Assembly: GCA_018004935.1 (NCBI GenBank)
Contig: JAGNBF010000089.1
Location: forward strand, 1-33,144
Source: Chloroflexota bacterium
GTDB lineage: Bacteria; Chloroflexota; Anaerolineae; Promineifilales; Promineifilaceae
Direction of reading: 5' to 3'
DNA: 33,144 nucleotides
Every line of letters starts with the position of its first letter. The stretch's first letter is position 1. A model generated the notes under the pieces. It saw only the letters and a program-made list of their open reading frames with translations. It was not told where the DNA came from and searched no databases. Below are positions 7,534 to 33,144 of the stretch, one piece after another. A program made the position numbers and the translations under genes.

Positions 7534-8148
7534 ATGAGTTTGGTGGTGGTGACATTGCAGTATCAGCAACTGCAAATGGATATGGAGTTACCGCTAGAGA
7601 TACCTCTTGGGGTATTGGCCCCTGCTCTGTGGCGGGAGACTGGTTGGCAGAAAGGGATGTTGAAGCCGGTTGAGCCAATGACAACAACGGGAAGGGTGGT
7701 ACCCTCGGGCAATATAATCAGGCCACAGGATACGTTGCAAATGGCTGGTGTGGTGCATGGTGATGTCATTGATCTGGCGATTACTGAGGCCCCGGCTATT
7801 GACCTGGGGAAACGGGGCGATTTTACGGAGTTAGCCTCGGTAAGAGCATACCTGCAAAGCATGGAAACGGGTGCCGTGTTTCCATGCGTCAATACCCATA
7901 ATATGGTAGGACGTGCCCCAGAAATGGGGATTAACCTGGCCCATTTGCCACATCGAGATGCTGTATCCCGGCTTCATGCCAACATTTTGTACCGGGAAGA
8001 TGGTTACTGGCTGAAAGATGAAAATAGCCGTAATGGTACTTTTGTAGATGGGCGGCGTTTGTCGCCTGGGGACAGAATCCATTTGCGTGATGGATTTACC
8101 TTGCAGTTTGGTGAAGGTGGGCCGATATTGGTGTTCCGGCAACCGTGA
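7534..8148 (+). CDS. YukD/EsaB-type ubiquitin-like domain fused to FHA domain (type VII secretion)
   Basis: 204 residues. The first ~83 (VTLQY...DMELPLEIPLGVLAP, then LQMAGVVHGDVIDLAI) show the ubiquitin-like YukD/EsaB pattern: a beta hairpin, an ELP-type helix lead, and the closing G-V-x-x-G-D-x-I-x-L strand. A short linker leads to a canonical FHA domain with G126-R127, S145-R-L-H148 and N167-G168. In Firmicutes YukD is free and FHA domains sit on EssC; here the motor lacks FHA and the domain is joined to YukD instead. That suggests it docks to the motor and brings phosphothreonine control (inference). GAGGA at 7525-7529 supports the start. It immediately precedes the WXG100 and motor genes. 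Confidence 0.85.
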   Translation: MSLVVVTLQYQQLQMDMELPLEIPLGVLAPALWRETGWQKGMLKPVEPMTTTGRVVPSGNIIRPQDTLQMAGVVHGDVIDLAITEAPAIDLGKRGDFTELASVRAYLQSMETGAVFPCVNTHNMVGRAPEMGINLAHLPHRDAVSRLHANILYREDGYWLKDENSRNGTFVDGRRLSPGDRIHLRDGFTLQFGEGGPILVFRQP

Positions 8149-8509: not shown

Positions 8510-8788
8510 ATGGCAACACTTCATTTCGATACCGATGCAGGCAGAAATGCCTCAACTACCATTCAAACAGGGTGTGATTCGTTAAATGATCAATTAAATG
8601 CGTTAAATAGCCGCGTGAACAGCCTCGTCGGCTCTGAGTGGATGGGCAATTCAGCTAATCAGTTCAAGGGCGAATTCGATTCTTGGGCAACCCAGTTACG
8701 GGCTTGTACAGACAACCTGGCTACGCTGAAAACACGCCTGGACACAGAGATTGCCGAATGGGAAGCGGCCGCGCAAGGGCTGGCCTGA
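8510..8788 (+). CDS. WXG100 family protein, EsxA-like
   Basis: 92 residues, the normal WXG100 size. The helix-turn-helix hairpin shows the turn motif W44-M-G46 and a second helix ending E83-W-E, in the place of the YxxxD/E secretion signal. Its N-terminus MATLHFDTD resembles the MP[IV]LHMET[DE] start of the four larger proteins downstream, offset by one residue at the turn. Such proteins are both substrates and activators of type VII secretion motors. AAGGAG just upstream is a near-perfect ribosome site, and a terminator follows, so it is probably made in excess over the motor. A HIP-like octamer encodes AAA near the C-terminus. Confidence 0.93.
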   Translation: MATLHFDTDAGRNASTTIQTGCDSLNDQLNALNSRVNSLVGSEWMGNSANQFKGEFDSWATQLRACTDNLATLKTRLDTEIAEWEAAAQGLA

Positions 8789-9082: not shown

Positions 9083-9124
9083 CTGAGCCAGACTGAAAAT
9101 TCAGCCTCATCGAATTACTAGTTG

Positions 9125-12100
9125 ATGCAGATTATGTCTGATAACAATCGTGCCCGGACACTCCCTGATGCCAATGTAAAATATTTGATTAAACAGTATG
9201 CGCGGAAGCGGGAGCCGTTGCCGGAAGCCCAGATCAAAATTCGTAGCCCCAAAAATTTGCCTTCTTTGCCCGAAAAACCATCCCTGGCCAATTATTTAAC
9301 GATGATGATGTTTCCTATTATGAGCGGAGCTTTTGGTTATATAGGCTCTGTGGCTTTGGGTACAGAGAGTTCGGGGGTACGGGTTTTATTAACGGCCGCA
9401 CCCATGTTTTTTGTGGCGTTAATCACCATGAGTTTGCAACGTTACAGTTACAAGCAAAAGGTTAAGACGATTACGGCTGAACGGGATAGATTATTTAATG
9501 GCTATGTAGCTGATCTGCAAAAGATTGAGCAGGACCTGGTGCAGTATGGGCGGCAACAACAACATATTTTGCATGGTGAGAACCCTTCTTTGGAGGAATT
9601 GAACCGACGGGTGCAACAGCGTATGTCGGTGTTATGGGAACGGCGCCCTAATGACAATGATTTTTTAGCTTTGCGGGTAGGCACAGGAGAATGGCCCAAT
9701 ACGGTAAAGGTGCAGGCTCCGGATGGGGATCCTGATGATTCGCGTATTGTCAGTGCCCAGCGTATCGCCCAAAAATATTTAGTAATTCCCGACATGCCGA
9801 TTTTGGTGAATCTGAATCGGTTGGGTTCGGTGGGGGTGCGGGGAAATCGGCCTACGGAAGCGCTTTATCTGGCATTTGCTATGTTGTCGAGCCTGGCCGT
9901 GCATCATAGCCCGGATGAGGTTCATTTATATGTGTTTAGTCATCGCCCAGACGCGGCCGCGTTGTGGCAATGGGTGCGTTGGCTTCCTCATACCAATATT
10001 TTGTACAGCACGGGGGCTAAAACTCGCCTTTCTTTATCTCCCAGTACCGATGAAGCTATTCTGGTGGATCACCTTTCCCCCTTACTGCGGAACCGCGCCG
10101 ACCGAGAACGTCGTTCCGCCGATTTATACGGCCAGAGTCAACCCCACTTAATCCTAATATTTGACCGCACCACCGATCTGCTGACCCATAAAGTTGTACA
10201 GATGGCCTTGAATCACAATCCTGATATGCGTGAAAACGAATTGCAGGTCAGTGCTATTTTTATTGATAGTGTACCTCGGGGTGTTAGTGCGGTAGTGACA
10301 TTACAAGGCGAGACATTGGAATACCGGGAGACTTATGCCGGGCAGGCGCGGCCGCCGGTCACGCAAGTGAATGCGGAATTGGTAGATGCCAAACGGATGG
10401 AACAATTGGCCCGGCGTATGGCCCCATTACGGACGGAAGCCAGTTTGCACAAAGGGGCGGGGGGGTTGCCAGGTAGTTTGCGGTTGGTACAACTGTTTAA
10501 TGCCATCCAACCGGACAAGGTAGATTTGAGCCGCCTTTATCAGGCAACCTATAACCCTAAACAGATTATGTCTTTTCCGATTGGGCTGAACACTGATCTG
10601 AAACCGCAATATGTAGTGCTACGAGAAAAAGGTCAGGATGGGTTTGGTACTCATGCTATGTTAGCCGGGGGGACAGGTAGTGGGAAAAGTGTGACCTTAC
10701 AAACCCTGGTTTTGAGCATGGCGCTGACCCATTCCCCCCGCTATCTCAATATGGTTCTGGCAGATTTCAAAGGGGGAGCTTCGGAACTGGCTAAGGTAAA
10801 AACATTGCCCCATGTGGTAGGTTTTGTGACAGATTTGAACCGTTCCCTGGTAGAGCGGTTTCGTATAGCCCTGGAAAGTGAGATTGCTTATCGCCAGAAA
10901 TTATTTGATACAGCCAAAGATAGGATTGGGGTGGCGGTAGCTGGTATTTATCATTACAACACGTTGAAAATGGTGGAGCCATTACCCCATTTGGTGGTGG
11001 TAATTGATGAGTTTGCCAAAGCGCTGGCCATTAATCCAGAGTTCCAGCGGGCTATTGATTTGATTGCGTCGCAGGGGCGAGCGTTGGGGGTTCATCTGAT
11101 TCTGAGTACCCAGCGTGGTACTGATTTTGGCCCTAAGATTCGACCCAATATTGATATTCGTATGTGTCTGAAGGTGAATGGCCGGGATGATAGTATGGCT
11201 ATTTTTGGCCGCCCGGAGGCTTTTACGGAGTTGCAACGGCCTGGACAGGGGTATATTCAGGTAGGAGATAATGAAATCTTTGAGATGTTCCAGGCCGGGC
11301 GGGTAGATTTACCTTATCAACCGGATGGGCAGGTGGTCGCGGCCGCGAATGAAGATTTTGTTATTAACCGGGTAGGGCCTGATGGTCGGCGGCAGGAGTT
11401 GTACAAACATAACGCGGGCAAACAGCCCAAAGTACAAGCCGTTAATACCCAATCTGAAGCCGAAAAGTTGGTTGAACATATTCAGACTTATTGCCAGCAA
11501 CACAATTATCCCTCTGTACGCATGATCTGTTTACCCCCCTTACCGGGAGCAGATGATTTGGATTTACAGCGACTGATCATTCAGCAACCGGTTTATCGTT
11601 CCTGGCAAGGGCGTGGTTGGTCAGAAATAAAACAGCCGGAACGCCGCCTGTGTGTGGCGATGGGGTTGTCGGATTTACCGGCGCAACAGGCGCAGAATCC
11701 CCTTGTGGTGGATTTGAAAACAGGCGATGGTAACTTTTTGGTGGTGGGACCAAAAGATTCAGGCAAAAGTTTGTTTTTGCGGCGTCTTGTGTTGGGTCTG
11801 GCTTTGACCCATCGGCCTGATGAAGTTCAGGTGTATATTCTGGCACGGGGGAATAGTTTGCAGTCATTAGGGGAATTACCCCATTGTGAACCAGCTATTT
11901 TTGCCAGTGATACAGAGCGTATTCAGCGGTTATTGAGTTTTTTACGCCAGGAAATTCAACAGCGGGAGCGCCGTCTCATTGAAGCACGAGTGGATTCATT
12001 AGAAACCTTGCGTCGCCAACAGCCGGATCTGGTTTTACCCGCTTTGATTGTCATTTTTGAAGATTTCCCCGGTTTTAAAGGTGATTTTGAAGACAAACTT

Positions 12101-13348
12101 ACTGAAGTGCAGAGCCTGATAGCGGATGGGAAAAAGGGAGATGTGCATTTTATCTTGGGGGGGAATTCGTTGGCAGGTATTCATACCCGTATTCAGGAGC
12201 ATGTGCGCCAACGGCTGGCTTTGGGGTTGAAGTCGGCAATGGAAAATATGGAAGTCCTGGGGCGTAAATTGGAAGCGGTGGAGCCAATTTCTGGACGGGG
12301 ATATGTGACGGTAGGTACGGAGTTATTTGAATGTCAGGTGGCTACGGCTCCAGACACCAATCACCTGGCTAAACGGATGAATGAGATGTGGTCTGGAGCG
12401 CGGCCGCGTTCGGTTGATCCTCTGCCTTTCCATCTGTTTTTGCCGGAATTGTGGCACAAAGCGGGTCATGAAGAAGTGGATTACATGGCTACGGCTCCCA
12501 TTGGTCGGACGTATGACACATTGGAACTGGTGCGGTTGAATCTATTTGATCTGGAGCCATTTTTCATTGTGTCTGGACCGCCCGGTGGCGGTAAGACGCA
12601 GGCGTTAATTACGTTGTGCCTCGCGGCCGCGATGACAATCCCCCCTGAGCGTTTAGAAATGGTTGTCTTGTCATTTAAACGGGGTTTGCGGGGGATACGA
12701 CATTTGCCCCAGGTACGTTATGCAGAACAGGCAAGTACCGCAAAGAAACTGTTAGAAGAAATATATGAGGCACTTGATACCAAGGCCAAAGCTTTGGAAA
12801 ATGCCAGCGAAGAGATATTACCGACAACCAATGATTTGACGAAGGCGTTGCCTAAAAAAACGCTCATTGTTGTAGATGGGTTGATGAACCTGATGAACCA
12901 GGCAGAGTTGGTGAAGGTGTTGGATAATTGTGCCGAGCGCGGCCGCAATCTTCATTTGACTATTGTTTTAGCAGATACAGGTACCAATTTGGGGCAAGTT
13001 AAAACCCAAACCGTCTTTAGTATGAGTAAGGTGTTGAAATCGGCTTTTAACTATAATTGTGGCCTGGTTTTTTCTGCCGAAGCCGCCGATATGACACCCC
13101 TGAATAATTTGCATATGCGGATGAGTCAACAACTACTCCGTTTTCACAAACCCACTTTGGGCAAAGGACGGGGCGTTTTGGTTTATCAAAATCAAGAAGT
13201 TGTCATGCAGGTAGCTTCGATTATGTCTATTACCGGGGAACCGGAGAAGACTCACCTGGAACCGTTGATCCACCAGATTGAACGTACATTCTCCCCGCCC
13301 CCAGTCAGCCAGGAGGAAGCCGATGCCCATTCTACACATGGAAACTGA
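9125..13348 (+). CDS. essC: EssC/EccC-type type VII secretion motor (FtsK/SpoIIIE family, three ATPase domains)
   Basis: About 1407 residues, the usual size for full-length EssC/EccC. Two membrane helices lie near 57-100 with no N-terminal FHA domain, which is more EccC-like than Firmicutes EssC. ATPase 1 has a canonical Walker A GGTGSGKS (about 515) and Walker B VVVIDEF (about 623-630). ATPase 2 has GPKDSGKS (about 875) and LIVIFEDF (about 973). ATPase 3 has GPPGGGKT (about 1151) and TLIVVDG (about 1246), which lacks an acidic residue after the Asp. The motor would engage WXG substrates and drive export. Start choice is uncertain: ATG 9125, ATG 9134 and TTG 9122 are all weakly supported. Its end overlaps the first large WXG gene by 26 bp. 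Six HIP-like octamers lie inside. Confidence 0.93.
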   Translation: MQIMSDNNRARTLPDANVKYLIKQYARKREPLPEAQIKIRSPKNLPSLPEKPSLANYLTMMMFPIMSGAFGYIGSVALGTESSGVRVLLTAAPMFFVALITMSLQRYSYKQKVKTITAERDRLFNGYVADLQKIEQDLVQYGRQQQHILHGENPSLEELNRRVQQRMSVLWERRPNDNDFLALRVGTGEWPNTVKVQAPDGDPDDSRIVSAQRIAQKYLVIPDMPILVNLNRLGSVGVRGNRPTEALYLAFAMLSSLAVHHSPDEVHLYVFSHRPDAAALWQWVRWLPHTNILYSTGAKTRLSLSPSTDEAILVDHLSPLLRNRADRERRSADLYGQSQPHLILIFDRTTDLLTHKVVQMALNHNPDMRENELQVSAIFIDSVPRGVSAVVTLQGETLEYRETYAGQARPPVTQVNAELVDAKRMEQLARRMAPLRTEASLHKGAGGLPGSLRLVQLFNAIQPDKVDLSRLYQATYNPKQIMSFPIGLNTDLKPQYVVLREKGQDGFGTHAMLAGGTGSGKSVTLQTLVLSMALTHSPRYLNMVLADFKGGASELAKVKTLPHVVGFVTDLNRSLVERFRIALESEIAYRQKLFDTAKDRIGVAVAGIYHYNTLKMVEPLPHLVVVIDEFAKALAINPEFQRAIDLIASQGRALGVHLILSTQRGTDFGPKIRPNIDIRMCLKVNGRDDSMAIFGRPEAFTELQRPGQGYIQVGDNEIFEMFQAGRVDLPYQPDGQVVAAANEDFVINRVGPDGRRQELYKHNAGKQPKVQAVNTQSEAEKLVEHIQTYCQQHNYPSVRMICLPPLPGADDLDLQRLIIQQPVYRSWQGRGWSEIKQPERRLCVAMGLSDLPAQQAQNPLVVDLKTGDGNFLVVGPKDSGKSLFLRRLVLGLALTHRPDEVQVYILARGNSLQSLGELPHCEPAIFASDTERIQRLLSFLRQEIQQRERRLIEARVDSLETLRRQQPDLVLPALIVIFEDFPGFKGDFEDKLTEVQSLIADGKKGDVHFILGGNSLAGIHTRIQEHVRQRLALGLKSAMENMEVLGRKLEAVEPISGRGYVTVGTELFECQVATAPDTNHLAKRMNEMWSGARPRSVDPLPFHLFLPELWHKAGHEEVDYMATAPIGRTYDTLELVRLNLFDLEPFFIVSGPPGGGKTQALITLCLAAAMTIPPERLEMVVLSFKRGLRGIRHLPQVRYAEQASTAKKLLEEIYEALDTKAKALENASEEILPTTNDLTKALPKKTLIVVDGLMNLMNQAELVKVLDNCAERGRNLHLTIVLADTGTNLGQVKTQTVFSMSKVLKSAFNYNCGLVFSAEAADMTPLNNLHMRMSQQLLRFHKPTLGKGRGVLVYQNQEVVMQVASIMSITGEPEKTHLEPLIHQIERTFSPPPVSQEEADAHSTHGN

Positions 13349-14339
13349 GCAGGTGCGTGCGGCCGCAACTGAATTGATTGCGGCCGCGAATGCTCTGACA
13401 GATCAAGACAATACGTTAAACCAGATGATACAAAATCTTGATTTTTCTTGGCAAGGGCCGAGTGCTACGCAGTTCTTCCAAGAGCTGGCGCCCATGCTAC
13501 AGCAATTGCGTCAATTGGCTGAGGCTGGAACGACATTAGGTATACGGGTGCACCAGGAAGTGACAGAGTGGGAGATTGCTGATGGGCAAGGTGGTATGGG
13601 TCCAGGCGGGATTGTAATAGGGCCGGATGGCAAACCCCGATTCGACCATGATGGTAAAACTTCTCCGGGCATGGATTTTATCAGCGGCCGCGAATGGCAA
13701 ACGGGGGATCAATTTGACCCCGAATATACTGGTTTTGGGGCTACATTGATTGATGGTCAGTGGGAAACCGGCAAAGCGGCTTACAACGAAACCCTCTCTG
13801 GACGCTATGGCACTATTGAAATGCGCGGCTTAGGTTATGAAGCCGGAGCCGATGGCTCAGTCACTATCGGCGAAGATGGGTTATTGGCTGTCGGTGGGGT
13901 AAGCGCTGGGGCCTATCTGGCACAAGCTGGGTATCAAGGCGAGTTTGGTCCCGGCTACGCTACAGGGGAAGTAACGGTTGGGGCGAATGTATGGGCTGAA
14001 GGAGAGTTTGAGTTCAACCCGTTAGAAGGAGATGTGGAATTTGAAGGCGAAGTAGGGGCTTTTGCCGGTGTGAATGCTCAGGGTGAAGTGGGTGCAGATT
14101 TCGGCCCATTGGGAGGAAGTGTGGGGGGGCAAGTTGGTGTTGGTGTTGGTGCTGGCGCTAACATTGATGTGGGTTTTGACGATGGTGTTTTTGAACTGGA
14201 TTTTGGTGCCTATGCTTATCTGGGTGTTGGTGGAGGTGTAGATTACTCAATTGAGTTGGATGTGCCAGAACTGGTAGGCAATATTGTAGATGTGGGCGAG
14301 GATGTGGTAGATAGCTCCTGGATGCCCTGGAATTGGTAG
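13323..14339 (+). CDS. WXG-type secreted protein 1 with Gly-rich beta C-terminal domain
   Basis: 338 residues, starting at the ATG behind AGGAGG (about 13311-13316), inside the end of the motor gene, so probably translationally coupled. Residues 1-90 form the shared WXG-type module (MPILHMETE, W43-Q-G45, E82-W-E84). A linker follows, then a repetitive Gly/Ala-rich domain (about 150-320) of alternating small and acidic residues ending in DSSWMPWNW. This resembles Gly-rich domains attached to type VII substrates elsewhere; its function is unknown, with a membrane-inserting or structural role as guesses. Three octamers lie in the gene, two of them within 30 bp in the module. Being first after the motor, it may be a core substrate rather than a variable effector. 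Confidence 0.8.
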   Translation: MPILHMETEQVRAAATELIAAANALTDQDNTLNQMIQNLDFSWQGPSATQFFQELAPMLQQLRQLAEAGTTLGIRVHQEVTEWEIADGQGGMGPGGIVIGPDGKPRFDHDGKTSPGMDFISGREWQTGDQFDPEYTGFGATLIDGQWETGKAAYNETLSGRYGTIEMRGLGYEAGADGSVTIGEDGLLAVGGVSAGAYLAQAGYQGEFGPGYATGEVTVGANVWAEGEFEFNPLEGDVEFEGEVGAFAGVNAQGEVGADFGPLGGSVGGQVGVGVGAGANIDVGFDDGVFELDFGAYAYLGVGGGVDYSIELDVPELVGNIVDVGEDVVDSSWMPWNW

Positions 14340-15245: not shown

Positions 15246-15367
15246 GGTCTTTGGGATTTCAGGGGGTTGACACCATCTGTAGGGGCAACCCTTGTGGTTG
15301 CCCTCGGCGGGGCAGGCACAAGGCCAGCCCCTACATGTAGCCGCACCCCACGAATTCCGAAAGAACC
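15246..15367 (+). mobile_element. MITE-like repeat, family R3 copy 2
   Basis: About 122 bp, starting GGTCTTTGGGATTTC and ending GAATTCCGAAAGAACC, which are near-complementary. Internal GGGGCAACCCTTGTGGTTGCCC and GGCCAGCCCCTAC palindromic blocks are present. It ends 26 bp before the CHAP protein start, so it supplies that gene's leader. A fragment similar to family R1 (GCTGTGGCCGGT) lies upstream at about 15180-15215. Confidence 0.7.
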
Positions 15368-15393
15368 AAAAAACAAAGAACTCGGAGCGTATC

Positions 15394-16587
15394 ATGCCCA
15401 TTTTGCACATGGAAACAGACATCGTGCGTGGCGTAGGTAATCAATTGCAACAAACAGCCGATCTGTTGTCTGAGCATACACAACAATTCAATACAACCAT
15501 ACAAACCTTGAGTAGCCATTGGCAAGGCCCCAGTGCTGAAATTTTTATCTCCGATATTCACCCCATCTTACACCAACTCAACCAACTCTTTGACACCGGC
15601 ACCACCCTCAATCACCGCCTTCAACGCGAAGTAGACGAATGGGAACAAGTTGACAATCAACGTGGACTTAACAGCTTATTAGATAGCATATTTGCAGGAA
15701 CCATACCTGCAATAGCTATACTTACACAAGGTGACAATACAAAAGGATCTGTCTTAGGTGCAAATACAGTCTCTTCGTCTACGGATTTTGAACCATTGCC
15801 CTGGTCTGAGAAGTTTGCCAAACTTGAAGAGCTAGAGAGAGAAATTGCTTCACAAGAACAAAATCTAAACGGACAATCTTCTTTTGATGAAGCCGAAGAA
15901 CGGATCAAAGCTATTGACGAACAAGTGGCTGAGCTTGAAGTGGAAAAACAGCAGGCACAAGCAGAAGCCAATAAATGGTATAACAAAGTTTTACCTGATT
16001 GGCCGTTGACTACAGATGATGATGGTGTCCCCTGGCGTGTTAAAGCAGATAACTCTGAAGACGAAATAGCTCGGTCTGAACGTTCAATTGAAAACTTACG
16101 TCAATCGCGAGAAGATCTTGTAAATTTACAACAACAGCATCAAACATTAAATTCATTAAAAGAACAACGTAATTCATTGGATGCGTTGATTAGTGAGGGT
16201 ATTCCACAGGATGGTCCTGCTGATAAGTATCCGTATTTTCCAGGTCAAATTGATACAAACTGTACAAAATATGCATCCCAAAAACGATATTTCCCTCAAA
16301 ATGTTAGCGGAAATGCTTATGAATGGCCTGTTCAAGCGAAAGAGGCTGGTTATGAAGTGGGATCTTATCCAGTAAAAGGGTCCGTTGTTGCATTTCAGCC
16401 GGGTATAAAAGGAGCTCATGCTCAGTATGGTCATGTGGCTATAGTAGAAGAAGTTCGCCAATTAGATGACGGTACTTATGAGGTTCTCTATTCGGATAAT
16501 CATCACGTACCTCCTAAGCCACCGGCAAAACTTAAATATACTCAGGGTGATTCTGGCATTTCATTTATCTATGATCAACAGAGGTAG
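15394..16587 (+). CDS. WXG-type secreted protein 2 with coiled coil and C-terminal CHAP amidase domain
   Basis: 397 residues from ATG 15394, after GGAG at 15384-15387. Upstream in-frame codons lie in a repeat and are not believed. Residues 1-90 are the shared module (MPILHMETD, W43-Q-G45, E82-W-E84). A charged coiled coil follows (about 145-265). The last ~120 residues match a CHAP (NlpC/P60-like) fold with C290 in NCTKYAS, H347 in GHVAIVEE and N369 in SDNHH, a plausible Cys-His-Asn triad. CHAP enzymes cut peptide bonds in peptidoglycan, so it could open the wall for the machine or act as a toxin on neighbours. The part after the module is visibly AT-richer than its neighbours and lacks octamers, suggesting C-terminal module exchange. 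Confidence 0.85.
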   Translation: MPILHMETDIVRGVGNQLQQTADLLSEHTQQFNTTIQTLSSHWQGPSAEIFISDIHPILHQLNQLFDTGTTLNHRLQREVDEWEQVDNQRGLNSLLDSIFAGTIPAIAILTQGDNTKGSVLGANTVSSSTDFEPLPWSEKFAKLEELEREIASQEQNLNGQSSFDEAEERIKAIDEQVAELEVEKQQAQAEANKWYNKVLPDWPLTTDDDGVPWRVKADNSEDEIARSERSIENLRQSREDLVNLQQQHQTLNSLKEQRNSLDALISEGIPQDGPADKYPYFPGQIDTNCTKYASQKRYFPQNVSGNAYEWPVQAKEAGYEVGSYPVKGSVVAFQPGIKGAHAQYGHVAIVEEVRQLDDGTYEVLYSDNHHVPPKPPAKLKYTQGDSGISFIYDQQR

Positions 16588-16660
16588 TTATTAACGACTT
16601 GCTTTGTTTCAATGTATCTTATTAAGTTTGTTCTACAAAGACTTTCAGGTGGACAGTAAT

Positions 16661-17482
16661 ATGCCTATTTTGCATATGGAGACGGATGTAGTGGGAGAGG
16701 TGGCGCAGGGGGTGGCGTTGCTGGCCGGGTTGGTGAATGAGGAAGGGAGCACGATGCGCCGGGCGGTGTGGGGGGTGGTAAATAGCTGGCAGGGAGGCGC
16801 GGCCGCAGACTTTGAATGGGAAGTAAATCACCTGCTTACTACCCTGTCCCGGCTGGAAGAAGAAGCCCTGCTTCTGGGCCAACGCCTGCGCCGCGAAATT
16901 GAAGAATGGGAAGATGTCGATCGCCAGTTAAGTGGTAGCTCTAATATGACTTTGCCGGGTTGGTCGCCCTCTCCTTTCCCGTTACGGCCTGGACCAGAGT
17001 TCCTACCCGATAATCCCCAAATGCCTTATCCTTTCCCACATCCTGAGGAGCCTTTCCCCATCCCCTTGCCGGATATTATCGGCAAACCAGATGAGGTCGG
17101 TAGAGTTGTCCCTCTGACAGGAACGGCAACCCCACCTATTATTCCCCCCGATCACCCTGCCACCTCTGACCCAATGGATAAACCTGGCATTGCATCCGCC
17201 AAACCTAATAGTGAAAAACCCAATCTCGCAACAGAGTCAGGAACAGTGACACCCCCCATTATTCCCCCTGATCATCCATCTGCAAACCCGGCCGACAAAC
17301 CACGTGTTTCCCCTGTTAAGCCGGTTGTGGAGAATCCAGAACCCAAAATAGGAACAATGCGGCCGCACCCCCCCATTGATTCCCCTGTCGCGGCCGCAGA
17401 CCCTGATGACAAACCATTACCGCATCAGCGAAAAACCCCTGGTTCTTCTGGTCCCTATCGCCCAGAAGACCCTACCAGTTAA
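16661..17482 (+). CDS. WXG-type secreted protein 3 with proline-rich repeat tail
   Basis: 273 residues from ATG 16661, after AGGTGG. The first 90 residues are the shared module (MPILHMETD, W43-Q-G45, E82-W-E84), ungapped against its paralogues. The remainder is Pro-rich and probably disordered, with about three imperfect repeats of TPPIIPPDHP followed by PxDKP, the first two exactly 120 bp apart in DNA. No enzyme domain is visible. It could be a secreted wall-spanning spacer, a scaffold, or a carrier that lost its toxin domain. Three octamers are present, one inside the third repeat. Confidence 0.75.
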   Translation: MPILHMETDVVGEVAQGVALLAGLVNEEGSTMRRAVWGVVNSWQGGAAADFEWEVNHLLTTLSRLEEEALLLGQRLRREIEEWEDVDRQLSGSSNMTLPGWSPSPFPLRPGPEFLPDNPQMPYPFPHPEEPFPIPLPDIIGKPDEVGRVVPLTGTATPPIIPPDHPATSDPMDKPGIASAKPNSEKPNLATESGTVTPPIIPPDHPSANPADKPRVSPVKPVVENPEPKIGTMRPHPPIDSPVAAADPDDKPLPHQRKTPGSSGPYRPEDPTS

Positions 17483-17540: not shown

Positions 17541-18710
17541 ATGCCAGTTTTACACATGGAAACCGATAGTGTGAGAAGTACCGGGCAGGCATTAGGGAGC
17601 GCGGCCGCACTCCTGGCTGATCAAATGTTTGATCTACAGGTTAGCATTAACTCGCTGGCCAATGGTTGGCAAGGTCCCGCCAGTGAGATGTTCATCGCAG
17701 AAATCACCCCATGGTTACGCCAACTTACCCAACTGACCGATGAAGTGAGCACCCTGCGCGACCGTGTGTTTCGGGAAGCCGATGAATGGGAACGGGTAGA
17801 TAGTATGATGGGTGGTGCGGCCGCGACCTTGGGTGCTTTATTTGCACAGCAAGTTCACCAGGCCGCCATGCAAACAGCCATAGGTGTCATGGCACGTGAC
17901 TTAGCTGAAATCGCACATACGACTGCCATATTCCACGATATGTCTCCCATATCGCCTGATAGCTGGCGCAGTGATTGGCAATGGCATTTTGATCCAATTG
18001 ATATGATTGACTGTATACCACAAGGAGCACGACCTGACGGGGCACCATCAACTGAATTAAGTAATGCAATGGCACAACTATCAGATCTGGTTTCGCATGG
18101 CATAGACGATATTGACCCTGTAACGGAACAGAAATTACTGGAGACAATCGCAAACCAGCGTGGTCTCACTTATGAGCAAGTTGTAGGCGACTACCGCAAA
18201 TTCCTAGGCTTAATCAAGGACAACCCTCCTGCGCCTACAGACCGGGCAGAATATTGGGGAACCATACAGCAATTACGCTTTGGCACAGTCGTGGGAGATA
18301 GTTTAGGCATTGATGCTGTATTTGGGTCACTTTTAAGTCCAACCGGTGGTCTTGTTGGCCCTTCAGAAGGACGAGTCATTCATGATGTTCTCTACAGACC
18401 AGATTCAGCTCTTGCCTATCATGGTATCTACCACGACGCCGCAGGCTTTTTTGCCCGAGAACCTTATAACCTGACGCCCAGCTATGAATATGTATTGACC
18501 ATAGAAGAAGATAGACGATTTGAAGGGCCATTTGCTCCTATCCTTGACATGGATAAGTTCAAAGCATTGGATGGGCAGGAAACAGGAATTGCCTTTTGGC
18601 ATGAGTTGCTTAAGATAAATGGCAAAAACCCCGCTGGTTCTTCTTCCGATCTTCCTAAATCTAGAGGAGCTGGAGGAGGTGGGGGTGGCGGCGGAGGTGG
18701 GGCGTGGTAA
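17541..18710 (+). CDS. WXG-type secreted protein 4 with unknown C-terminal domain containing YHDAAG motif
   Basis: 389 residues behind AGGAGG (about 17531-17536). Residues 1-92 are the shared module (MPVLHMETD, W43-Q-G45, E82-W-E84). A small-residue helical stretch (about 95-130) could touch membranes. The C-terminal domain (about 250-370) has RVIHDVLYRPDS and YHGIYHDAAGFF, placing H294, H298 and D299 close together, followed by a Gly-rich end (GGGGGGGGGG-AW). I do not recognise the family; the His/Asp cluster suggests a hydrolase-type effector but this is not shown. No obvious immunity gene follows: the next gene is an FHA membrane protein after a 338-bp gap. Confidence 0.75.
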   Translation: MPVLHMETDSVRSTGQALGSAAALLADQMFDLQVSINSLANGWQGPASEMFIAEITPWLRQLTQLTDEVSTLRDRVFREADEWERVDSMMGGAAATLGALFAQQVHQAAMQTAIGVMARDLAEIAHTTAIFHDMSPISPDSWRSDWQWHFDPIDMIDCIPQGARPDGAPSTELSNAMAQLSDLVSHGIDDIDPVTEQKLLETIANQRGLTYEQVVGDYRKFLGLIKDNPPAPTDRAEYWGTIQQLRFGTVVGDSLGIDAVFGSLLSPTGGLVGPSEGRVIHDVLYRPDSALAYHGIYHDAAGFFAREPYNLTPSYEYVLTIEEDRRFEGPFAPILDMDKFKALDGQETGIAFWHELLKINGKNPAGSSSDLPKSRGAGGGGGGGGGGAW

Positions 18711-19048: not shown

Positions 19049-20401
19049 ATGTCGAATGGGCGGAGCTTGCCCCAAAACCGGATACCCCTTATGCCACATT
19101 TTCTGATACGCCCCTTATTACCAGATGGTTATCGCCCACGCTGGTTGGTGCTGTTCCTAGTTTGCCTGAGTGGTGGTCTTCTTTTTCTCTGGTTAATGAC
19201 CCCGATGGGTAGGGCGCAGGCGCAAACCGCCGCCCTTGAAATTGAGAGCGACCCACCAATAGTTGTTTTGGGCACAAACCATACGCTCACTGTTACCATT
19301 TATTACACAATTCCGGCAGATGTACCCGTAACGACACCGTACACTCTTTATTACTTTGTGCCGGATGAACAAAATGGTTTGATGTTGAGCCAAACAGACC
19401 CCGGTGATCTTTCCACTGGCAATGGTTTGCATCCATTGACGAATCAGCCAGTTCGTTTTTGGGATATTATTCCGGGCATTCAACCTACCAGATTATTTAC
19501 GGTTCATCTGAATGTCTTGGAATTCGCTACCACGGGAGTGTTTACTCATATAACCGAGTTGGTCAACGCGGCCGCGCCCAATACTGTTATCGTCTCCGCG
19601 ACAGCCACAACGGTATTAACCACTGCTGTTCCTATCCCTAATGGTCTCCCCACCCTGGCAACGCCAACCGTCTCTTTGACGCCAACAATCCCTATTACCC
19701 TGGTTACTCCTGTTCCTCCGCCATCCACGATCCCCCCTTCCCCTATCCTGACACCCTCTCCCCCTATACCACCATCTACCTGGACACCCCAACCAACGGT
19801 GACACCTACCCTGGCTCCAGAAATAGTAGCTTCGCCAACGATAACCATACCTCAAGTCATCGCCACATTACCATCACCCCCGAGTCCATACCCGGCAGAC
19901 TTATTCAATAAGAGTGGGTTGTTTCTGATCTTGTTACTATTTATGGGATTATTGGTTGTGGTAGGTTTGGGCGGGATTCTCTTTTTGTGGTCAAGGAATC
20001 GGCGCAAACCTACCCCCCGGCCAATCATTCCGAAATCATCATTGCCGACCATTGCTTTGCCCGCGGCCGCGTCCCCTTCTGCCCTACCTGAAGCCTACCT
20101 GACCGATGTTACCGGCAAACCGCTGGCTATCACCACTCCCACCTTTACCATAGGCCGGGCCACTGACAACCAACTTGTGATAGATGCCCGCTTCCCCGAG
20201 TGGGAAACCGTCTCCCAATACCATGCCACCATCAGTCGCTCCCCCAGAGGTTATATCATCGAAGACCGGGGTTCACGGAATGGCCTGCGTGTGCAAGGCC
20301 GTCCGACCCCCAAAAATTTGCTCCAAAATGGGTATACTATCCATTTAGGTGACGTATCATTTACTTTTCATCAACCCGCGGAATCAGGAGGGCGTGCATG
20401 A
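19049..20401 (+). CDS. Membrane protein with beta-rich outer domain, Thr/Pro stalk and cytoplasmic FHA domain
   Basis: 450 residues from ATG 19049; ATG 19091 is an alternative and neither has a clear ribosome site. A signal peptide (about 31-59, ending AQA) leads to a beta domain (about 60-190), a long Thr/Pro-rich stalk (about 195-285), one membrane helix (about 290-315) and a cytoplasmic FHA domain (about 355-448) with IGRA, SQYHAT and SRNG motifs intact. It mirrors the first gene of the window in topology and would read phosphothreonine inside while contacting something outside. Its stop overlaps the next start (ATGA), so it is coupled to the zinc-ribbon/pseudokinase/PP2C protein, its likely partner. 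Confidence 0.85.
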   Translation: MSNGRSLPQNRIPLMPHFLIRPLLPDGYRPRWLVLFLVCLSGGLLFLWLMTPMGRAQAQTAALEIESDPPIVVLGTNHTLTVTIYYTIPADVPVTTPYTLYYFVPDEQNGLMLSQTDPGDLSTGNGLHPLTNQPVRFWDIIPGIQPTRLFTVHLNVLEFATTGVFTHITELVNAAAPNTVIVSATATTVLTTAVPIPNGLPTLATPTVSLTPTIPITLVTPVPPPSTIPPSPILTPSPPIPPSTWTPQPTVTPTLAPEIVASPTITIPQVIATLPSPPSPYPADLFNKSGLFLILLLFMGLLVVVGLGGILFLWSRNRRKPTPRPIIPKSSLPTIALPAAASPSALPEAYLTDVTGKPLAITTPTFTIGRATDNQLVIDARFPEWETVSQYHATISRSPRGYIIEDRGSRNGLRVQGRPTPKNLLQNGYTIHLGDVSFTFHQPAESGGRA

Positions 20402-22041: not shown

Positions 22042-22046
22042 AAATT

Positions 22047-22844
22047 ATGTATATTGATGTTTGGGGTGAGACAGACCCAGGACAAGCTCGTCCTGATAAT
22101 CAGGACAACCTCTTTTTTGTGCATGGGCAAGGGTCTGATGTGTCGCCCCGGCAGATACAACAGAGTGGTCTATTGTTGGTCATTGCTGACGGTTTTGGCC
22201 AGGGGACATTAGGGCAGGAAGCCAGCCGTTATTTGCTCCATGATGTGGTACAAGGATATTACCGTGCTGGGAGTCATAACGCGCCAGAAAATCTACGCAT
22301 AGCCATTTGTGATGCCAATGAAAACGCGGCCGCACATTTTCCCCAGCAAAACGCGGCCGCAACGCTTATCGCGGCTGTCATTATGCAAAACCAACTTCAT
22401 CTGGCCCACATTGGTGAATGTCGGGCCTATCTTTTACGTCAGGGTACGATGCGCCAACTTACCACTGACCATGTGGAGCGAGGGCAGGTGACTCGTTACC
22501 TGATTGCTGATCGCCAAGCTCAACCAGACCTGCTATTACCCATTGAATTATATCCTGGGGATCGGTTGCTTCTTTGTTCAGATGGTCTGTACGATCCCTT
22601 TCCAGACGCGGCCGCGATCCATCAATTGGCCCGTTCTGGTTCACCCCAACGGTCCGTACGCCGCCTTATTGAGAAAGCCAACCAACAGGGTGGCCCAGAC
22701 AATATCAGCGTCATCATTGCCGATGTTCAAAATGCACATCCCCTGGCGGGCTGGCAAAAAGTAATACTCCTGGGACTCACTGTGTTAGCCTTGCTGGCTT
22801 GCCTGGGATTTATCGCCGAAATCATCCGTGTGTTATCCAACTAA
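22047..22844 (+). CDS. PP2C-family phosphatase, C-terminally membrane-anchored, partly degenerate
   Basis: 265 residues. It shows a PP2C frame: RPDNQDN, D48-G-F-G-Q (normally DGxGG), CSDGL and GGPDNIS, with the main metal-binding Asp residues present. However GDSRAYL reads GECRAYL, and the usual M-G-[ST]-T strand is replaced by N-A-A-A-T, where AAA comes from a GCGGCCGC octamer at 22353. Activity may be reduced. A single membrane helix (about 235-258) ends the protein, with the catalytic part inside. It starts five bases after the previous stop, with no clear ribosome site, so coupling is likely. Three octamers fall in this short gene. Confidence 0.8.
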   Translation: MYIDVWGETDPGQARPDNQDNLFFVHGQGSDVSPRQIQQSGLLLVIADGFGQGTLGQEASRYLLHDVVQGYYRAGSHNAPENLRIAICDANENAAAHFPQQNAAATLIAAVIMQNQLHLAHIGECRAYLLRQGTMRQLTTDHVERGQVTRYLIADRQAQPDLLLPIELYPGDRLLLCSDGLYDPFPDAAAIHQLARSGSPQRSVRRLIEKANQQGGPDNISVIIADVQNAHPLAGWQKVILLGLTVLALLACLGFIAEIIRVLSN

Positions 22845-22852
22845 ACTAATTC

Positions 22853-22973
22853 GGCTCTTTGGCAATTGAGGGGTTGTCACCCCATGTAGCATCAACCCTT
22901 GTGGTTGCCCTCGCCGGGCGGGCACAAGGCTTACCCTTACAGTACCGCTCACCCCATAAAATCCCAAAGACCC
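22853..22973 (+). mobile_element. MITE-like repeat, family R3 copy 3
   Basis: About 121 bp, from GGCTCTTTGGCAATT to AAATCCCAAAGACC, with the inner CAACCCTTGTGGTTGCCC block. It fills nearly the whole space between the preceding stop and the zinc-ribbon gene. Confidence 0.65.
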
Positions 22974-22990
22974 CCTAATTCCTTTTGCTT

Positions 22991-23779: not shown

Positions 23780-23782
23780 TTC

Positions 23783-24757: not shown

Positions 24758-24796
24758 CAGTTTTTGTGACCTGTTATGTGGCTGTACTCAGTTTCT

Positions 24797-24886
24797 GGTG
24801 TGACGCTACGGGATGGCTCGAGCCGATCTCCTGATCGTGCTCGTTGTGGCCTGGTAGGGACACCGGTCACAGCCCGTAAGTCCTAA
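24797..24886 (-). repeat. Dispersed 90-bp repeat, family R1 copy C (inverted orientation)
   Basis: Read on the minus strand, this aligns with copy A at 81-170, including TTAGGACTTACGGGCTGTG, the GATCAGGAGATC centre and CGAGCTCG-like flanks. It is separated by only 16 bp from R3 copy 4. Confidence 0.6.
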
Positions 24887-24902
24887 GGTCACAAAATGCT
24901 TT

Positions 24903-27857: not shown

Positions 27858-28868
27858 ATGCCACTGACAACGGGTTATGTTTTAAATGATCGTTATCGCA
27901 TTGTGAAACAAATCCAACGTGGTGGTTTTGGTGCTGTTTACCGAGCCTGGGATGTAGTGTCCCGGCAACCTTGTGCCGTTAAAGAAAATCTGGAAACCAA
28001 TCTCAAATCTCAGGAGCAGTTTCAGCGGGAAGCTACTTTGATGAGCAATTTGCATCATCCTAGCCTGCCCCAAGTGACTGATCATTTTGTCATTCCTGAG
28101 CAAGGGCAATATTTGGTGATGGATTTTGTGGAGGGCCAAAATCTAGAGCAGATTTTGCAACAACAAGGGCGACCGTTTCAAGAAAGTGAGATTATGGAAT
28201 GGGTGGATCAGGTATGTGATGCTTTACATTATTTGCATACCCGCCAACCCCCCATCATTCATCGGGATGTGAAACCCGCTAATATCATTATTAACAGCCA
28301 GCGCCGGGCAATACTGGTGGATTTTGGTATCTCCAAAGTATATGACAAACGGTTGACTGCTACTGGTGCGGTAGCGGTTACACCCGGTTATAGCCCCCCA
28401 GAGCAATATGGGCGTGGTCAGACGGAAGCCCGGACGGATATCTATGCTCTAGGGGCTACTGTCTATGTTTTGCTGACGGGCAACCGGCCTCCCATTAGTC
28501 TGGAGCGTATGGCGAATATGAAAAGTATGCCTGCTCCGCGTCAGGTTAACCCGCAAATTTCGGGAATGGTGGATCAGGCAGTGATGAAGGCGATGAATGT
28601 GATGCTGGTAGATCGGTATAGTACCATCGCTGAGTTTCGACAGGTGTTGAGTTTTCCGCGCTCAGGGGTGGCGGTAAAGTTGGATGCGGTGCGAACACCT
28701 TTGCCCGTGGCACCGGTTACACCTGTAGTAGCGAATGGGGAGAAGGTTCGCGGCCGCAGTCGGTGGCCGCTCATTTTATTGTTCGGGGGCATTTTTCTGG
28801 CCGCGTTGTGTACCATTGTCGTGGTTATACTCCTGGTATTATTGGAAGCGGGCATTTTAGGGACATAA
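27858..28868 (+). CDS. Membrane-anchored Ser/Thr protein kinase 1 of three tandem paralogues
   Basis: 336 residues. The kinase domain (about 10-270) has GGFGAVYRA, K42 in CAVKEN, H135-R-D137-V-K-P-A-N, DFG at D155 and SPPEQYG. A linker leads to one membrane helix (about 305-330) and almost no outside part, so it is the ectodomain-free member of the set. AAGGA nine to ten bases upstream supports the start. The next kinase follows after five bases. It probably phosphorylates Thr sites read by the FHA proteins. One octamer lies just before the membrane helix. Confidence 0.93.
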   Translation: MPLTTGYVLNDRYRIVKQIQRGGFGAVYRAWDVVSRQPCAVKENLETNLKSQEQFQREATLMSNLHHPSLPQVTDHFVIPEQGQYLVMDFVEGQNLEQILQQQGRPFQESEIMEWVDQVCDALHYLHTRQPPIIHRDVKPANIIINSQRRAILVDFGISKVYDKRLTATGAVAVTPGYSPPEQYGRGQTEARTDIYALGATVYVLLTGNRPPISLERMANMKSMPAPRQVNPQISGMVDQAVMKAMNVMLVDRYSTIAEFRQVLSFPRSGVAVKLDAVRTPLPVAPVTPVVANGEKVRGRSRWPLILLFGGIFLAALCTIVVVILLVLLEAGILGT

Positions 28869-28873
28869 ATTTC

Positions 28874-31330
28874 ATGCCGCTCATTCAAGGACAGTTATTA
28901 AATAACCGTTATCGTATTGCTCGCCTTATTGGTCAGGGTGGTTTTGGGGCGGTTTATCGGGCCTGGGACACGGCCATCAACCAGCCTGTAGCCATCAAAG
29001 AAAACCTGGATACCGGCCAAGAAGCCCAAAAACAGTTTTATCGGGAAGCCTCATTTTTAGCCCGTTTACGTCACCCCAATCTGCCCCGGGTGACAGACCA
29101 TTTCACCATGCCTGGTCAGGGTCAATATTTGGTGATGGATTTTGTCGAAGGGCAAAACCTGAAGGAATTGTTGCTCACCCGAGGACAACCATTTAGCGAA
29201 GTAGAGGCTTTGCCCTGGATTGAACAGATTTTCGACGCTTTAACTTATTTGCATGGCCTGACTCCGCCCATCATTCATCGGGATATTAAACCCGCCAATA
29301 TCATCATCACCCCAGACGGGAAACCGATGTTGGTGGATTTTGGGATTTCCAAAATTTACAATCCCGACTTTTCCACCACTGTGGGGGCTAAAGCTGTTAC
29401 GCCGGGTTATAGTCCGCCAGAGCAATATGGCGGAGGTATGACGGATGCTCGGGCAGATATTTATGCTATGGGAGCCATGCTGTACACGATGCTTACCGGC
29501 AAAGAACCGCCGGAGAGTGTGCAACGAATGGCCGGAGCGGTGAAGATGACGGCTCCGCGCCAGGTGAATGCCCAGATTACCCCAACTCTGGAAGCGGCTA
29601 TTCTGAAAGCGATGGAAGTAAATACTACTCAGCGCTTTCAAAATGTGGCTGAATTTCGGCGGGCGTTGCATCATTCGCTGGCTGTTCCCTTGCCGAAAAA
29701 GAAACGAGGTGGCCTGATCTGGCTGTTGGTGGGTGGGGGGATGATTATGGTGTTAGGGGTGGCTATTTTGTTGGCTATGCTGTTGACAACGATAAACGAT
29801 GACCCTACAAAAATTCCTACCGAACTGGCTACGGTAACGGAGGAGATCGCGGCCGCGCCCACAGAAACGATGGCCGTTACGGAGACGCCTTCCCTGACTC
29901 CTTCATTAACTGCAACGGTTACCGCCTTTCCCCCTACAAATGAGGTTGTGGCTCCAACCGAAGAGCCTACGGCTACGCCCACCTTTACCCGTACTTCTAC
30001 GCCCACTCGCACCGCCACAGCTACACGCACGAGTGCATCGGCTTCTGTGGGTGTGTCCCCAACTTTTACCCTTTCGTCTACTTCAACAACAGCGCCTGCG
30101 GCCGCGGGCTGTTCTATGGGGGGTGGTTCGGCTAGTTCCGGTGGGGGGTTGCCTCTTACTTTTGAGTCGTTTGGTAATTGGGTGCGGGGCAATGAGAACA
30201 ATGGGGCCATTGTGTCTACAGGGGAGCGGGTGCATGGCGGCGCGGCCGCGGCACGCATTTGTTACAACTTCCCGGCGGAGAGCAATGATTACGTTGTTTT
30301 TCTCCAATTTAATGCCATAAGCGGCTCTCCCAATGCCTTACAACTTTGGGTTTATGGCGATGGTACTGGTCATTATTTCAATATTTGGATTCAGGATAGT
30401 GATAGCCAGACATGGCAAGTGCCCATGGGTCGTCTCACGCATACGGGTTGGCAACAGATGACTGGTTTCATTCAAACCGGTCAGGTCTGGCCCTGGCAGG
30501 CAATCAGTGGCACGGATAATGGCATTGTGGATTACCCTATCCAATTTCGTGCCTTTGTTATAGATGATCGCCCTGACACGTTTACCGGCGAGAGTATCAT
30601 TTATGTGGATGATTTAACGGCAACGACGCTAGATCCAGGCAATTTACCGCCAACGGCCACACCTGGGTCAGGAAATGCGGCCGCGACAGCCACGCCTTCT
30701 GCTGTAGGGACAACCATCTCGGTTGCAACCTTGCCCCCCGGCAGTGTCGGCCAAATTTTATACACCGCCAGCAATACCCTGATGACCACCAATCCCGATT
30801 GGAGTATGGGGAGAGAAGTGGGTACAGTTTCCAGTAATACCTGTGGCACAACGGCTACGACTGTCAGTGGTCAAAGTTACAACCTGTTCCGAGGGTATCG
30901 CTGTGGTATACCCCAAACCATCAGCACTTGTGCTTCACCTAACGGGGCGTATGAAATTGTGATTGATGCCCAAGACCCCAATAACGCCAGCCTGTTAGTG
31001 CGTCCCACAGGGAATGCCAGTGCCGTGCAATTTGTTTATCAAGGGGTATTAGATCTACAGGACGGATTACAATGGTCCCCTGGCAGTACCACCTTTCTTT
31101 TTAGCATTGGTACCGATACCTATGCCGGTTATCCCTCTGGGGGTTATGACCATATTTTGTCCCAGGGATATGAACCATTTTTCTCTCCTAATGGGTCCAG
31201 CCTGTTGTACCGAAAGCCGGTGGGACCTGGCGTTTATGATATTTTTGTCAGTAATGCGGATGGTTCCAATGAGCGTAATGTGACGAATGCGTCTAGTGTC
31301 AACAAAACGTGCGCCGTATGGCGGAATTAA
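28874..31330 (+). CDS. Receptor-like Ser/Thr kinase 2 with carbohydrate-binding-like and beta-propeller-like ectodomain
   Basis: 818 residues from ATG 28874, five bases after the previous stop; codons further up overlap the preceding gene. The kinase domain (about 10-270) has GGFGAVYRA, AIKEN, H135-RD-I-K-P-A-N and VDFGIS. A membrane helix (about 280-305) and a Thr/Pro stalk (about 310-410) follow. The outside part begins with a beta-sandwich (about 425-590) resembling carbohydrate-binding CBM11/CIA30-type folds, then a region (about 625-818) with SPNGAYEIVI, LQWSPGSTTFLFS and FFSPNGSSLLYRKP strands typical of TolB/PD40 propeller repeats. It likely senses a wall sugar or extracellular ligand. 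Four octamers lie between the stalk and the second outer domain. Confidence 0.9.
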   Translation: MPLIQGQLLNNRYRIARLIGQGGFGAVYRAWDTAINQPVAIKENLDTGQEAQKQFYREASFLARLRHPNLPRVTDHFTMPGQGQYLVMDFVEGQNLKELLLTRGQPFSEVEALPWIEQIFDALTYLHGLTPPIIHRDIKPANIIITPDGKPMLVDFGISKIYNPDFSTTVGAKAVTPGYSPPEQYGGGMTDARADIYAMGAMLYTMLTGKEPPESVQRMAGAVKMTAPRQVNAQITPTLEAAILKAMEVNTTQRFQNVAEFRRALHHSLAVPLPKKKRGGLIWLLVGGGMIMVLGVAILLAMLLTTINDDPTKIPTELATVTEEIAAAPTETMAVTETPSLTPSLTATVTAFPPTNEVVAPTEEPTATPTFTRTSTPTRTATATRTSASASVGVSPTFTLSSTSTTAPAAAGCSMGGGSASSGGGLPLTFESFGNWVRGNENNGAIVSTGERVHGGAAAARICYNFPAESNDYVVFLQFNAISGSPNALQLWVYGDGTGHYFNIWIQDSDSQTWQVPMGRLTHTGWQQMTGFIQTGQVWPWQAISGTDNGIVDYPIQFRAFVIDDRPDTFTGESIIYVDDLTATTLDPGNLPPTATPGSGNAAATATPSAVGTTISVATLPPGSVGQILYTASNTLMTTNPDWSMGREVGTVSSNTCGTTATTVSGQSYNLFRGYRCGIPQTISTCASPNGAYEIVIDAQDPNNASLLVRPTGNASAVQFVYQGVLDLQDGLQWSPGSTTFLFSIGTDTYAGYPSGGYDHILSQGYEPFFSPNGSSLLYRKPVGPGVYDIFVSNADGSNERNVTNASSVNKTCAVWRN

Positions 31331-31354
31331 GTTGAATGTTTTCCAGGCAAACCC

Positions 31355-33144
31355 ATGTCATTAGATAAAGGGCAGATTTTACAAGGTCGTTACCGTATAG
31401 TGGAGTTAATTGGCCAGGGCGGCTTTGGGGCGGTGTACCGGGGGTGGGATATGACGCTGGGTCGCCCTTGTGCTGTTAAGGAAAACCTGGACACTAGCGA
31501 AGAAGCGCAACGGCAATTTCAGCGCGAAGCGACGCTTCTGGCTAAATTAAGCCATCCCAACCTGCCCCGTATGGCGGATCATTTTTTTGTGCCCGGCCAG
31601 GGACAATATCTGGTCATGGATTTTGTGCAGGGGCAAAGCCTGAAACAGCATCTGGTAGAACGCGGCCGCGCCCTTAGTGAGGCGGAGATATTACCCTGGA
31701 TTACTCAGGTATGTGAAGCCCTTATTTACCTGCATAGTCAAACCCCCCCCATCATTCATCGCGATATTAAACCGGATAATATCATTGTGACCCCAGAAGG
31801 GCGGGCCATGTTAGTGGATTTTGGCATCTCCAAGGTATATGATGCCCAGTTTTCCACGACTATGGGAGCACGGGCGATTACTCCCGGCTTTAGTCCGCCA
31901 GAACAGTATGGTATAGGTAAAACGGCTCCTCATACAGATGTCTATGCCATTGGGGCAACGCTTTATATGTTATTGACCGGGCAACAGCCCCCGGAAAGTG
32001 TGGCGATTATTGCCGACGAGAGCGCTTTGCCACCCCCGCGCCAGATAAATCCTACTATCTCGATACGCACGGAGCGGGCCATTCTGTTGGCGATGGATGT
32101 CTCTACGACGCGCCGGTTGCCGAACGCGGCCGCGTTGCTGACAGCACTTCAAGCTAACTCGCAGGGTTTACCTGGAATCTTACCCATCAATCGTCGCCGG
32201 ATAGGCCTGGTGGTTATAGGGGTAATAGGCATTTTAATTCTGGTTGCGGCCGCGTTTCTACTCCGGTCTTTCTCCACTGCGGACACCACTCCTACCCCTG
32301 TGGTGCCTGTCGCGGCCGCTACAACCCCCATCACCACCCTCATCACCCCTGCGCTTAGCACCACCCCTAACCCCGCCTTATTAGATGAGGACCAAGATGG
32401 TTTGACCAATGCTCAGGAAGATCAACTTGGCACCGATCCGATGAACTCTGATACAGATGGTGATAACCTGGATGACGGAGCCGAACAGTTACAGCATCAG
32501 ACTGATCCCCTAAACAAGGACAGTGATGCTGATTTATTGACCGACGGAGATGAGATTGAGCAGTACCTGACTAACCCCACACTGGCTGATAGCGATGGTG
32601 ATAACCGTACCGATGCCATAGAATTGGCGGAAGGAACAGACCCCTTGGTAGCACCAACCACAACCCCCTCGCCATCCCCTTCCGCCATTGCCACACCGAC
32701 AGATCATCCCCCTGCCACTCCTACCTCAACCGTCACCCCGGCCTGTCCGGCTATTTCTGGGCCTTTTGCTAATGCCTGGGGCCAGGTGAAAAATGACATT
32801 GGCTGTGCCGCCAATAATGCGGTTGCCGGAGTTATCGTGGAAGAAAACTTTGTGGGTGGCAAAATGTTCTGGCGTGAACCAATTGATTATGCCCAGGCGT
32901 TGGTTTTATTTGACAATGGCACATGGCGTATTTACAGCCATGCCCCTTACAATGAAGGAGACCCCGAATACCCCTGTACAGATGCCAATACTCCGGCTCA
33001 ATCTCCGCCCACTCCTCGGCGGGGATTTGGCACAATGTGGTGCGATATTTCCGCCATTCGTAATGGGTTAGGAAATGCAACGGATGTGGAAAGAGCGTTT
33101 AATGGGACAATGCAGAGTTTTGAGAATGGTTTCATGGTAGCTAC
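31355..33144 (+). CDS. Receptor-like Ser/Thr kinase 3 with calcium-type repeats in the ectodomain (3' end outside the window)
   Basis: At least 596 residues, open to the window edge with no stop. The kinase domain (about 10-270) has GGFGAVYRG, CAVKEN, HRDIKPDN and VDFGIS and is closely similar to the two preceding kinases. A membrane helix (about 283-305) and a Thr-rich stretch follow. Residues about 343-415 hold several D-x-D-x-D-G-type units (DEDQDGLTN, DSDTDGDNLDDG, DSDADLLTDGDE, DSDGDN) like thrombospondin type 3 calcium repeats. A Pro/Thr stalk and a further outer domain (from about 455, with several Cys) are cut off. It starts 24 bp after the previous stop without a clear ribosome site. 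Four octamers are present. Confidence 0.92.
   Translation, partial: MSLDKGQILQGRYRIVELIGQGGFGAVYRGWDMTLGRPCAVKENLDTSEEAQRQFQREATLLAKLSHPNLPRMADHFFVPGQGQYLVMDFVQGQSLKQHLVERGRALSEAEILPWITQVCEALIYLHSQTPPIIHRDIKPDNIIVTPEGRAMLVDFGISKVYDAQFSTTMGARAITPGFSPPEQYGIGKTAPHTDVYAIGATLYMLLTGQQPPESVAIIADESALPPPRQINPTISIRTERAILLAMDVSTTRRLPNAAALLTALQANSQGLPGILPINRRRIGLVVIGVIGILILVAAAFLLRSFSTADTTPTPVVPVAAATTPITTLITPALSTTPNPALLDEDQDGLTNAQEDQLGTDPMNSDTDGDNLDDGAEQLQHQTDPLNKDSDADLLTDGDEIEQYLTNPTLADSDGDNRTDAIELAEGTDPLVAPTTTPSPSPSAIATPTDHPPATPTSTVTPACPAISGPFANAWGQVKNDIGCAANNAVAGVIVEENFVGGKMFWREPIDYAQALVLFDNGTWRIYSHAPYNEGDPEYPCTDANTPAQSPPTPRRGFGTMWCDISAIRNGLGNATDVERAFNGTMQSFENGFMVA

Follow-up and report, generated by a model that had tools for sequence, protein, structure and literature searches.

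The gene at positions 7534-8148 of the window (the whole stretch of DNA analysed, 33,144 nucleotides, which is one entire contig, G000:C85, from an 8-Mb Chloroflexota genome) encodes a soluble protein in which a YukD-type ubiquitin-like domain (UBL) is fused to an FHA domain, as a sequence-only reading of this DNA had proposed. We interpret this UBL-FHA protein, with a probability of roughly 0.5, as the TsxB (EsaB/YukD) subunit of a type VII secretion system (T7SS) in Chloroflexota, acting as a two-headed adaptor that would connect the secretion motor to a phosphorylated partner. The features of the locus are summarized in Table 1.

Table 1. Features of the window, with the evidence used to assign them
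Feature	Position	Strand	Evidence
vWA-like + FHA protein, two hydrophobic stretches, 681 aa	284..2329	+	FHA; weak vWA; homology to the window's vWA protein; hydropathy
Soluble Ser/Thr kinase, HND catalytic loop, DFG, 310 aa	2590..3522	+	PF00069; motifs; neighbourhoods
PP2C phosphatase, one hydrophobic stretch, 609 aa	3519..5348	+	PF13672; hydropathy
UBL-FHA protein (TsxB/EsaB-like), 204 aa	7534..8148	+	ORF; Pfam YukD + FHA; homologues in 31 genomes
YukD/EsaB-type ubiquitin-like domain, aa 4-79	7543..7770	+	PF08817; PDB profile matches; hhalign
FHA domain, aa 125-193, GR126-127, S145-R-x-H148, N167-G-T169	7906..8112	+	PF00498; residue conservation
WXG100 protein (EsxA/TsxA-like), 92 aa	8510..8788	+	PF06013 E 4.9e-10
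EccC/EssC-type motor without FHA, 1408 aa, Walker A at aa 516, 876 and 1152	9122..13348	+	TIGR03928; PDB alignments; motifs
WXG100-headed protein, putative substrate	13278..14339	+	WXG100/PPE
WXG-headed protein with CHAP, putative cell-wall-acting substrate	15292..16587	+	PF05257 E 2.7e-13; WXG profile
WXG-headed protein, putative substrate	16604..17482	+	WXG profile built here; no Pfam match at E 0.01
WXG100-headed protein, putative substrate	17541..18710	+	PF06013 E 1.1e-4, below cut-off; WXG profile
Three Ser/Thr kinases, one hydrophobic stretch each, at 27858, 28763 and 31355	27858..33144	+	Pkinase (28763); kinase profile; HRD/DFG; hydropathy

A ubiquitin-like and an FHA domain on one chain

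The start codon of the UBL-FHA gene, an ATG, is directly preceded by an SD-like GAGGAAG. Pfam assigns residues 4-79 of the product to YukD (E 1.7e-9; 38.7 bits against a curated cut-off of 27) and residues 125-193 to FHA (E 2e-15). In the PDB, a profile of the N-terminal domain matched the UBL of two mycobacterial proteins, EccD3 (E 0.003) and EccD1 (E 0.014), and hhalign related the same domain to free YukD-like proteins (98%, E 2.5e-13). The sequence-only reading had made its identification depend on a match between residues 1-83 and YukD, and because the N-terminal domain matches YukD and the EccD UBL by Pfam, by profile and by hhalign, that identification stands. A single-sequence AlphaFold model of the protein was too poor for use (mean pLDDT 36). 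The two-domain frame is common to the homologues of the protein, and both the UBL and the FHA halves are under purifying selection, with pairwise dN/dS values among close homologues of 0.04-0.15 for the whole protein and below 0.3 for each half. When the protein was searched against plasmids with tblastn, matches were obtained in the FHA domain only.

EsaB/YukD (TsxB) of Bacillota T7SSb and T7SSc is likewise a soluble PF08817 UBL encoded beside WXG100 and EssC/EccC motor genes, but it is described as a small single-domain protein. Since the protein of the window carries a C-terminal FHA domain as a second domain on a 204-residue chain, it is classed as a variant of TsxB rather than as a plain member. 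The cytoplasmic UBL of EccD, in mycobacterial T7SSa, has the same fold and is related by profile, but is fused to a multi-helix membrane domain, whereas the UBL described here is fused to a soluble FHA domain. EccD-like proteins combining a UBL with 10-11 transmembrane helices also occur in Chloroflexota (L081, L082). Other YukD-headed fusions, with domains called by eye, are encoded in the phylum at L144 (7948-9294, minus strand) and L145 (7677-9194, minus strand); these two types join YukD to a ParA/MinD-like ATPase part, or to a membrane helix and WD40-like repeats.

Distribution, motor and origin of the fusion

Across the Chloroflexota genomes sampled, UBL-FHA proteins were found in 31, belonging to five families, and nearly all of the genes adjoin a T7SS motor or its WXG100 gene. 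Of the 52 genomes of the window's family, 19 carry full-length or motor-adjacent UBL-FHA genes, and a T7SS motor, called at a score clearly exceeding the FtsK background (about 130 bits), was likewise found in 19. UBL-FHA occurs in 18 of these 19 motor-bearing genomes, the exception being G460, whose contigs end at the motor, and in one of the 33 genomes without a detected motor (G021), where it lies beside a WXG100 gene on a contig that stops just past that gene. Outside this family, UBL-FHA proteins were found in two genomes of family f23 (G418 and G447) and in families f40, f50 and f76. One locus (L130) yielded neither a motor in the 19 kb read nor a Pfam YukD match, and for L134 and L136, the most diverged members, the UBL was recognised only through full-length alignment. 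In several relatives, the UBL-FHA gene and the motor are divergently transcribed.

A window-type motor and UBL-FHA also occur together in another family of the same class, at the G418 and G447 loci (L078, L146), where WXG100 and WXG-headed genes separate the two. Giant EccC-like motors of about 2,900-2,960 residues, each then followed by a UBL-FHA gene, are encoded at L131, L134 (9948-18677, minus strand; seven FtsK/SpoIIIE stretches), L135, L159 and L162, and comparably large frames are present in other families of the phylum; the EccC/EssC motors known so far are about 1,300-1,500 residues long.

The motor of the window is an EccC/EssC-type multi-ATPase membrane motor, which together with the adjacent WXG100 gene (8510-8788) marks the locus as a predicted T7SS in the broad sense. 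It matches TIGR03928 with 593 bits, under the equivalog cut-off of 778, and the EccCa and EccCb models, all under their equivalog cut-offs, and it aligns with EccC and YukB structures in the PDB. The motor had been proposed to lack FHA, and this is borne out by the absence of a Pfam FHA match and by the starting points of pairwise PDB alignments, in which motor residue 74 is already paired with residue 271 of the YukB construct of solved structure, and motor residue 35 with residue 19 of EccC3. The stretch of roughly 200 residues in which EssC carries its FHA pair is absent, and the motor thus does not have the N-terminal FHA domains of T7SSb. No Pfam match to EsaA, EssA or EssB was obtained among the 20 window proteins scanned, a scan that diverged forms could escape.

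The sequence-only reading had further suggested that the FHA domain moved from the motor onto YukD, a claim that we reject as unsupported. None of the Chloroflexota motors examined gave an FHA match, whether the associated UBL is free (L079, L080), fused to membrane helices in the manner of EccD (L081, L082) or fused to FHA, and Bacillota T7SSc, T7SSg and T7SSh motors are also reported to be FHA-less (PMC11217815). In addition, the FHA domain of UBL-FHA shows no special kinship to that of EssC, whose FHA structures it did not match in the PDB comparison. A separate acquisition of FHA by the UBL is no less likely than transfer from the motor. In the motor tree, whose deepest splits are weak (72) and whose root is arbitrary, at least two changes between the fused and non-fused states are needed.

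Phosphothreonine-binding residues and the proposed adaptor

The window protein presents the FHA signature for phosphothreonine binding (GR, S-R-x-H, N-x-T). Across 24 proteins, the window protein among them, GR (126-127), SR (145-146) and N167 never vary, and H148 and T169 are each present in 22 of the 24; by these residues, this intact class should bind phosphothreonine. Ten proteins from the f40, f50 and f76 loci, which correspond to Chloroflexus/Roseiflexus/Herpetosiphon-like families, have lost the GR and N positions and retain S145 and H148, in an alignment that is uncertain near GR and with an FHA domain that is weakly detected. The L165-type gene of a Chloroflexus-like genome is of this eroded kind, and the L162-type gene of the Herpetosiphon-like genome has intact FHA residues. 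Because the binding residues are eroded in these ten proteins, phosphate binding is not universal for the UBL-FHA architecture, and with most of these residues lost in part of the phylum, the FHA domain there probably acts without phosphothreonine binding.

Kinase, PP2C and vWA genes share loci with UBL-FHA, and both the vWA-FHA gene and the soluble kinase remain its neighbours in the nearest relatives (L062, L063, L125-L128). The window also holds further PP2C genes and a vWA protein, and its last kinase, at 31355, runs off the contig end. Zinc-ribbon, PP2C, vWA and FHA proteins are encoded in a run at 20398-27320, beside the T7SS genes, which suggests a large phospho-signalling module. Between the WXG-headed putative substrates lies a gene for a DcrB-family protein (PF08786; 14536-15042), for which a chaperone role is a guess.

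EccD is reported to touch the first ATPase domain of EccC through its UBL, and EssC to bind the EssB pseudokinase through its FHA domains (PMC11217815, PMC10765036). By joining these two contacts, we infer that UBL-FHA could bridge the motor and a phosphorylated partner; this bridge, its partner and its phosphate dependence are all proposed by analogy. The UBL would dock on the cytoplasmic base of the motor, much as in the EccD-EccC contact just described, and the FHA domain would bind phosphothreonine on a partner, for which one of the co-encoded kinases or the membrane-bound vWA-FHA protein is the most likely candidate. Tethering of this partner to the motor would then be controlled by kinase and PP2C phosphatase, and the tether would be a separate bridging protein, whereas EssC carries its own FHA domains for a similar job. 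UBL-FHA may in this manner form a phospho-switch of the T7SS, and the phosphorylation-dependent motor assembly that had been suggested from the sequence would have the same conditional standing. A stricter version, which we put forward tentatively, is a phosphorylation-operated coupling pin, with the UBL always on the motor, the FHA domain docking a membrane partner only when this is phosphorylated, kinase and PP2C serving as the on/off switch, and the eroded lineages representing constitutive versions.

The relationship of the N-terminal domain to the EccD UBL and to free YukD-like proteins, the FHA-less motor, the adjacency to motor or WXG100 genes in five families, the presence of UBL-FHA in 18 of the 19 motor-bearing genomes of the window's family, the invariance of GR, SR and N in 24 proteins and the kinase, PP2C and vWA genes of the loci argue for the adaptor. 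Against it, kinases also adjoin systems with a free UBL, so that kinases alone do not point to the FHA domain; the gene is divergent from the motor in several relatives; and the binding residues are eroded in the ten proteins described above. This erosion bears on a different account, in which the FHA domain acts constitutively as a structural clamp, keeping the UBL within the complex and not reading phosphorylation, like the FHA domains of EssC and MxiG, which lack phosphothreonine binding and serve as assembly modules (PMC10765036). The two-domain architecture stays in the ten Chloroflexota proteins despite the eroded residues, and judging from this class, the FHA domain may be such a clamp in some lineages. 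A pure clamp, however, would not need GR, SR and N, and their invariance in the window protein and 23 others across divergent sequences counts against this account, which we consider rather unlikely.

More doubtful is a GarA/OdhI-like role as a soluble inhibitor or signalling adaptor under phospho-regulation, which would act on kinases, transcription or substrates and not on motor assembly. The FHA part does score against GarA, OdhI, EmbR and FhaB in the PDB, several kinases and phosphatases are encoded in the locus, and the UBL-FHA gene is often divergent from the motor; the UBL half, however, is specifically of the T7SS YukD/EccD type, and the adjacency of the gene to the motor is kept across families. 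A conjugating role, with the UBL half attached to targets in a bacterial ubiquitination-like pathway, was rejected as scarcely credible: the same genome does have a YukD-like UBL beside E2-like, JAB and RING-like genes, but in UBL-FHA the linker and FHA domain follow in the same chain, so that there is no free C-terminal glycine, and no E1, E2 or JAB match was obtained among the 20 window proteins scanned. The former gene group (L068, 8735-12610 on G000:C36), with a UBL ending in TAGRS and with E2-like (UQ_con), two JAB and RING-like genes, is a bacterial ubiquitination-like operon, and a solo UBL of this type is present in most genomes of the window's family.

Relation to described systems

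The gene content of the locus is closest to that of Bacillota T7SSc (PMC11217815), as both comprise a WXG100 protein, a UBL protein, an FHA-less motor, a kinase, a PPM phosphatase and a vWA protein. This likeness is one of gene content; TscB of T7SSc is small, with no FHA domain reported, and T7SSc has the EspG-like TscG. The N-terminal FHA domains of EssC in T7SSb are also FHA modules serving a T7SS motor, but they are located on the motor and are without phosphothreonine-binding residues (PMC11217815), whereas here TsxB bears the FHA domain and has kept these residues. TseJ, TsfJ and TsjJ of T7SSe, f and j resemble UBL-FHA as separate FHA-containing components of systems with kinases and/or phosphatases; however, the N-terminal domain described for TseJ and TsfJ is DUF6382 and not a UBL, and the motors of T7SSe, f and j carry FHA as well.

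The only YukD fusion in a 2006 survey of prokaryotic UBL fusions is a 12-helix membrane fusion (PMC1779556), and the 2024 survey by Garrett, Higginson and Palmer is confined to Bacillota and Actinomycetota (PMC11217815). No report of a YukD-FHA fusion was found in a full-text search of the open-licence literature. The UBL-FHA fusion, a T7SS TsxB with a second domain, thus appears not to have been described previously, a provisional statement because it covers open-licence literature and, among phyla, Chloroflexota alone.

EsaB/YukD is essential in T7SSb, where its role is unclear (PMC11217815). The natural fusion of UBL to FHA beside motors in several families joins two modules that are otherwise scattered among T7SSs, and it predicts a shared site of action for EsaB and the FHA domains. 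The occurrence of intact and eroded FHA domains in related loci makes phospho-control of T7SS assembly directly testable, and Chloroflexota, a phylum outside the 2024 survey, is added to the described T7SS types.
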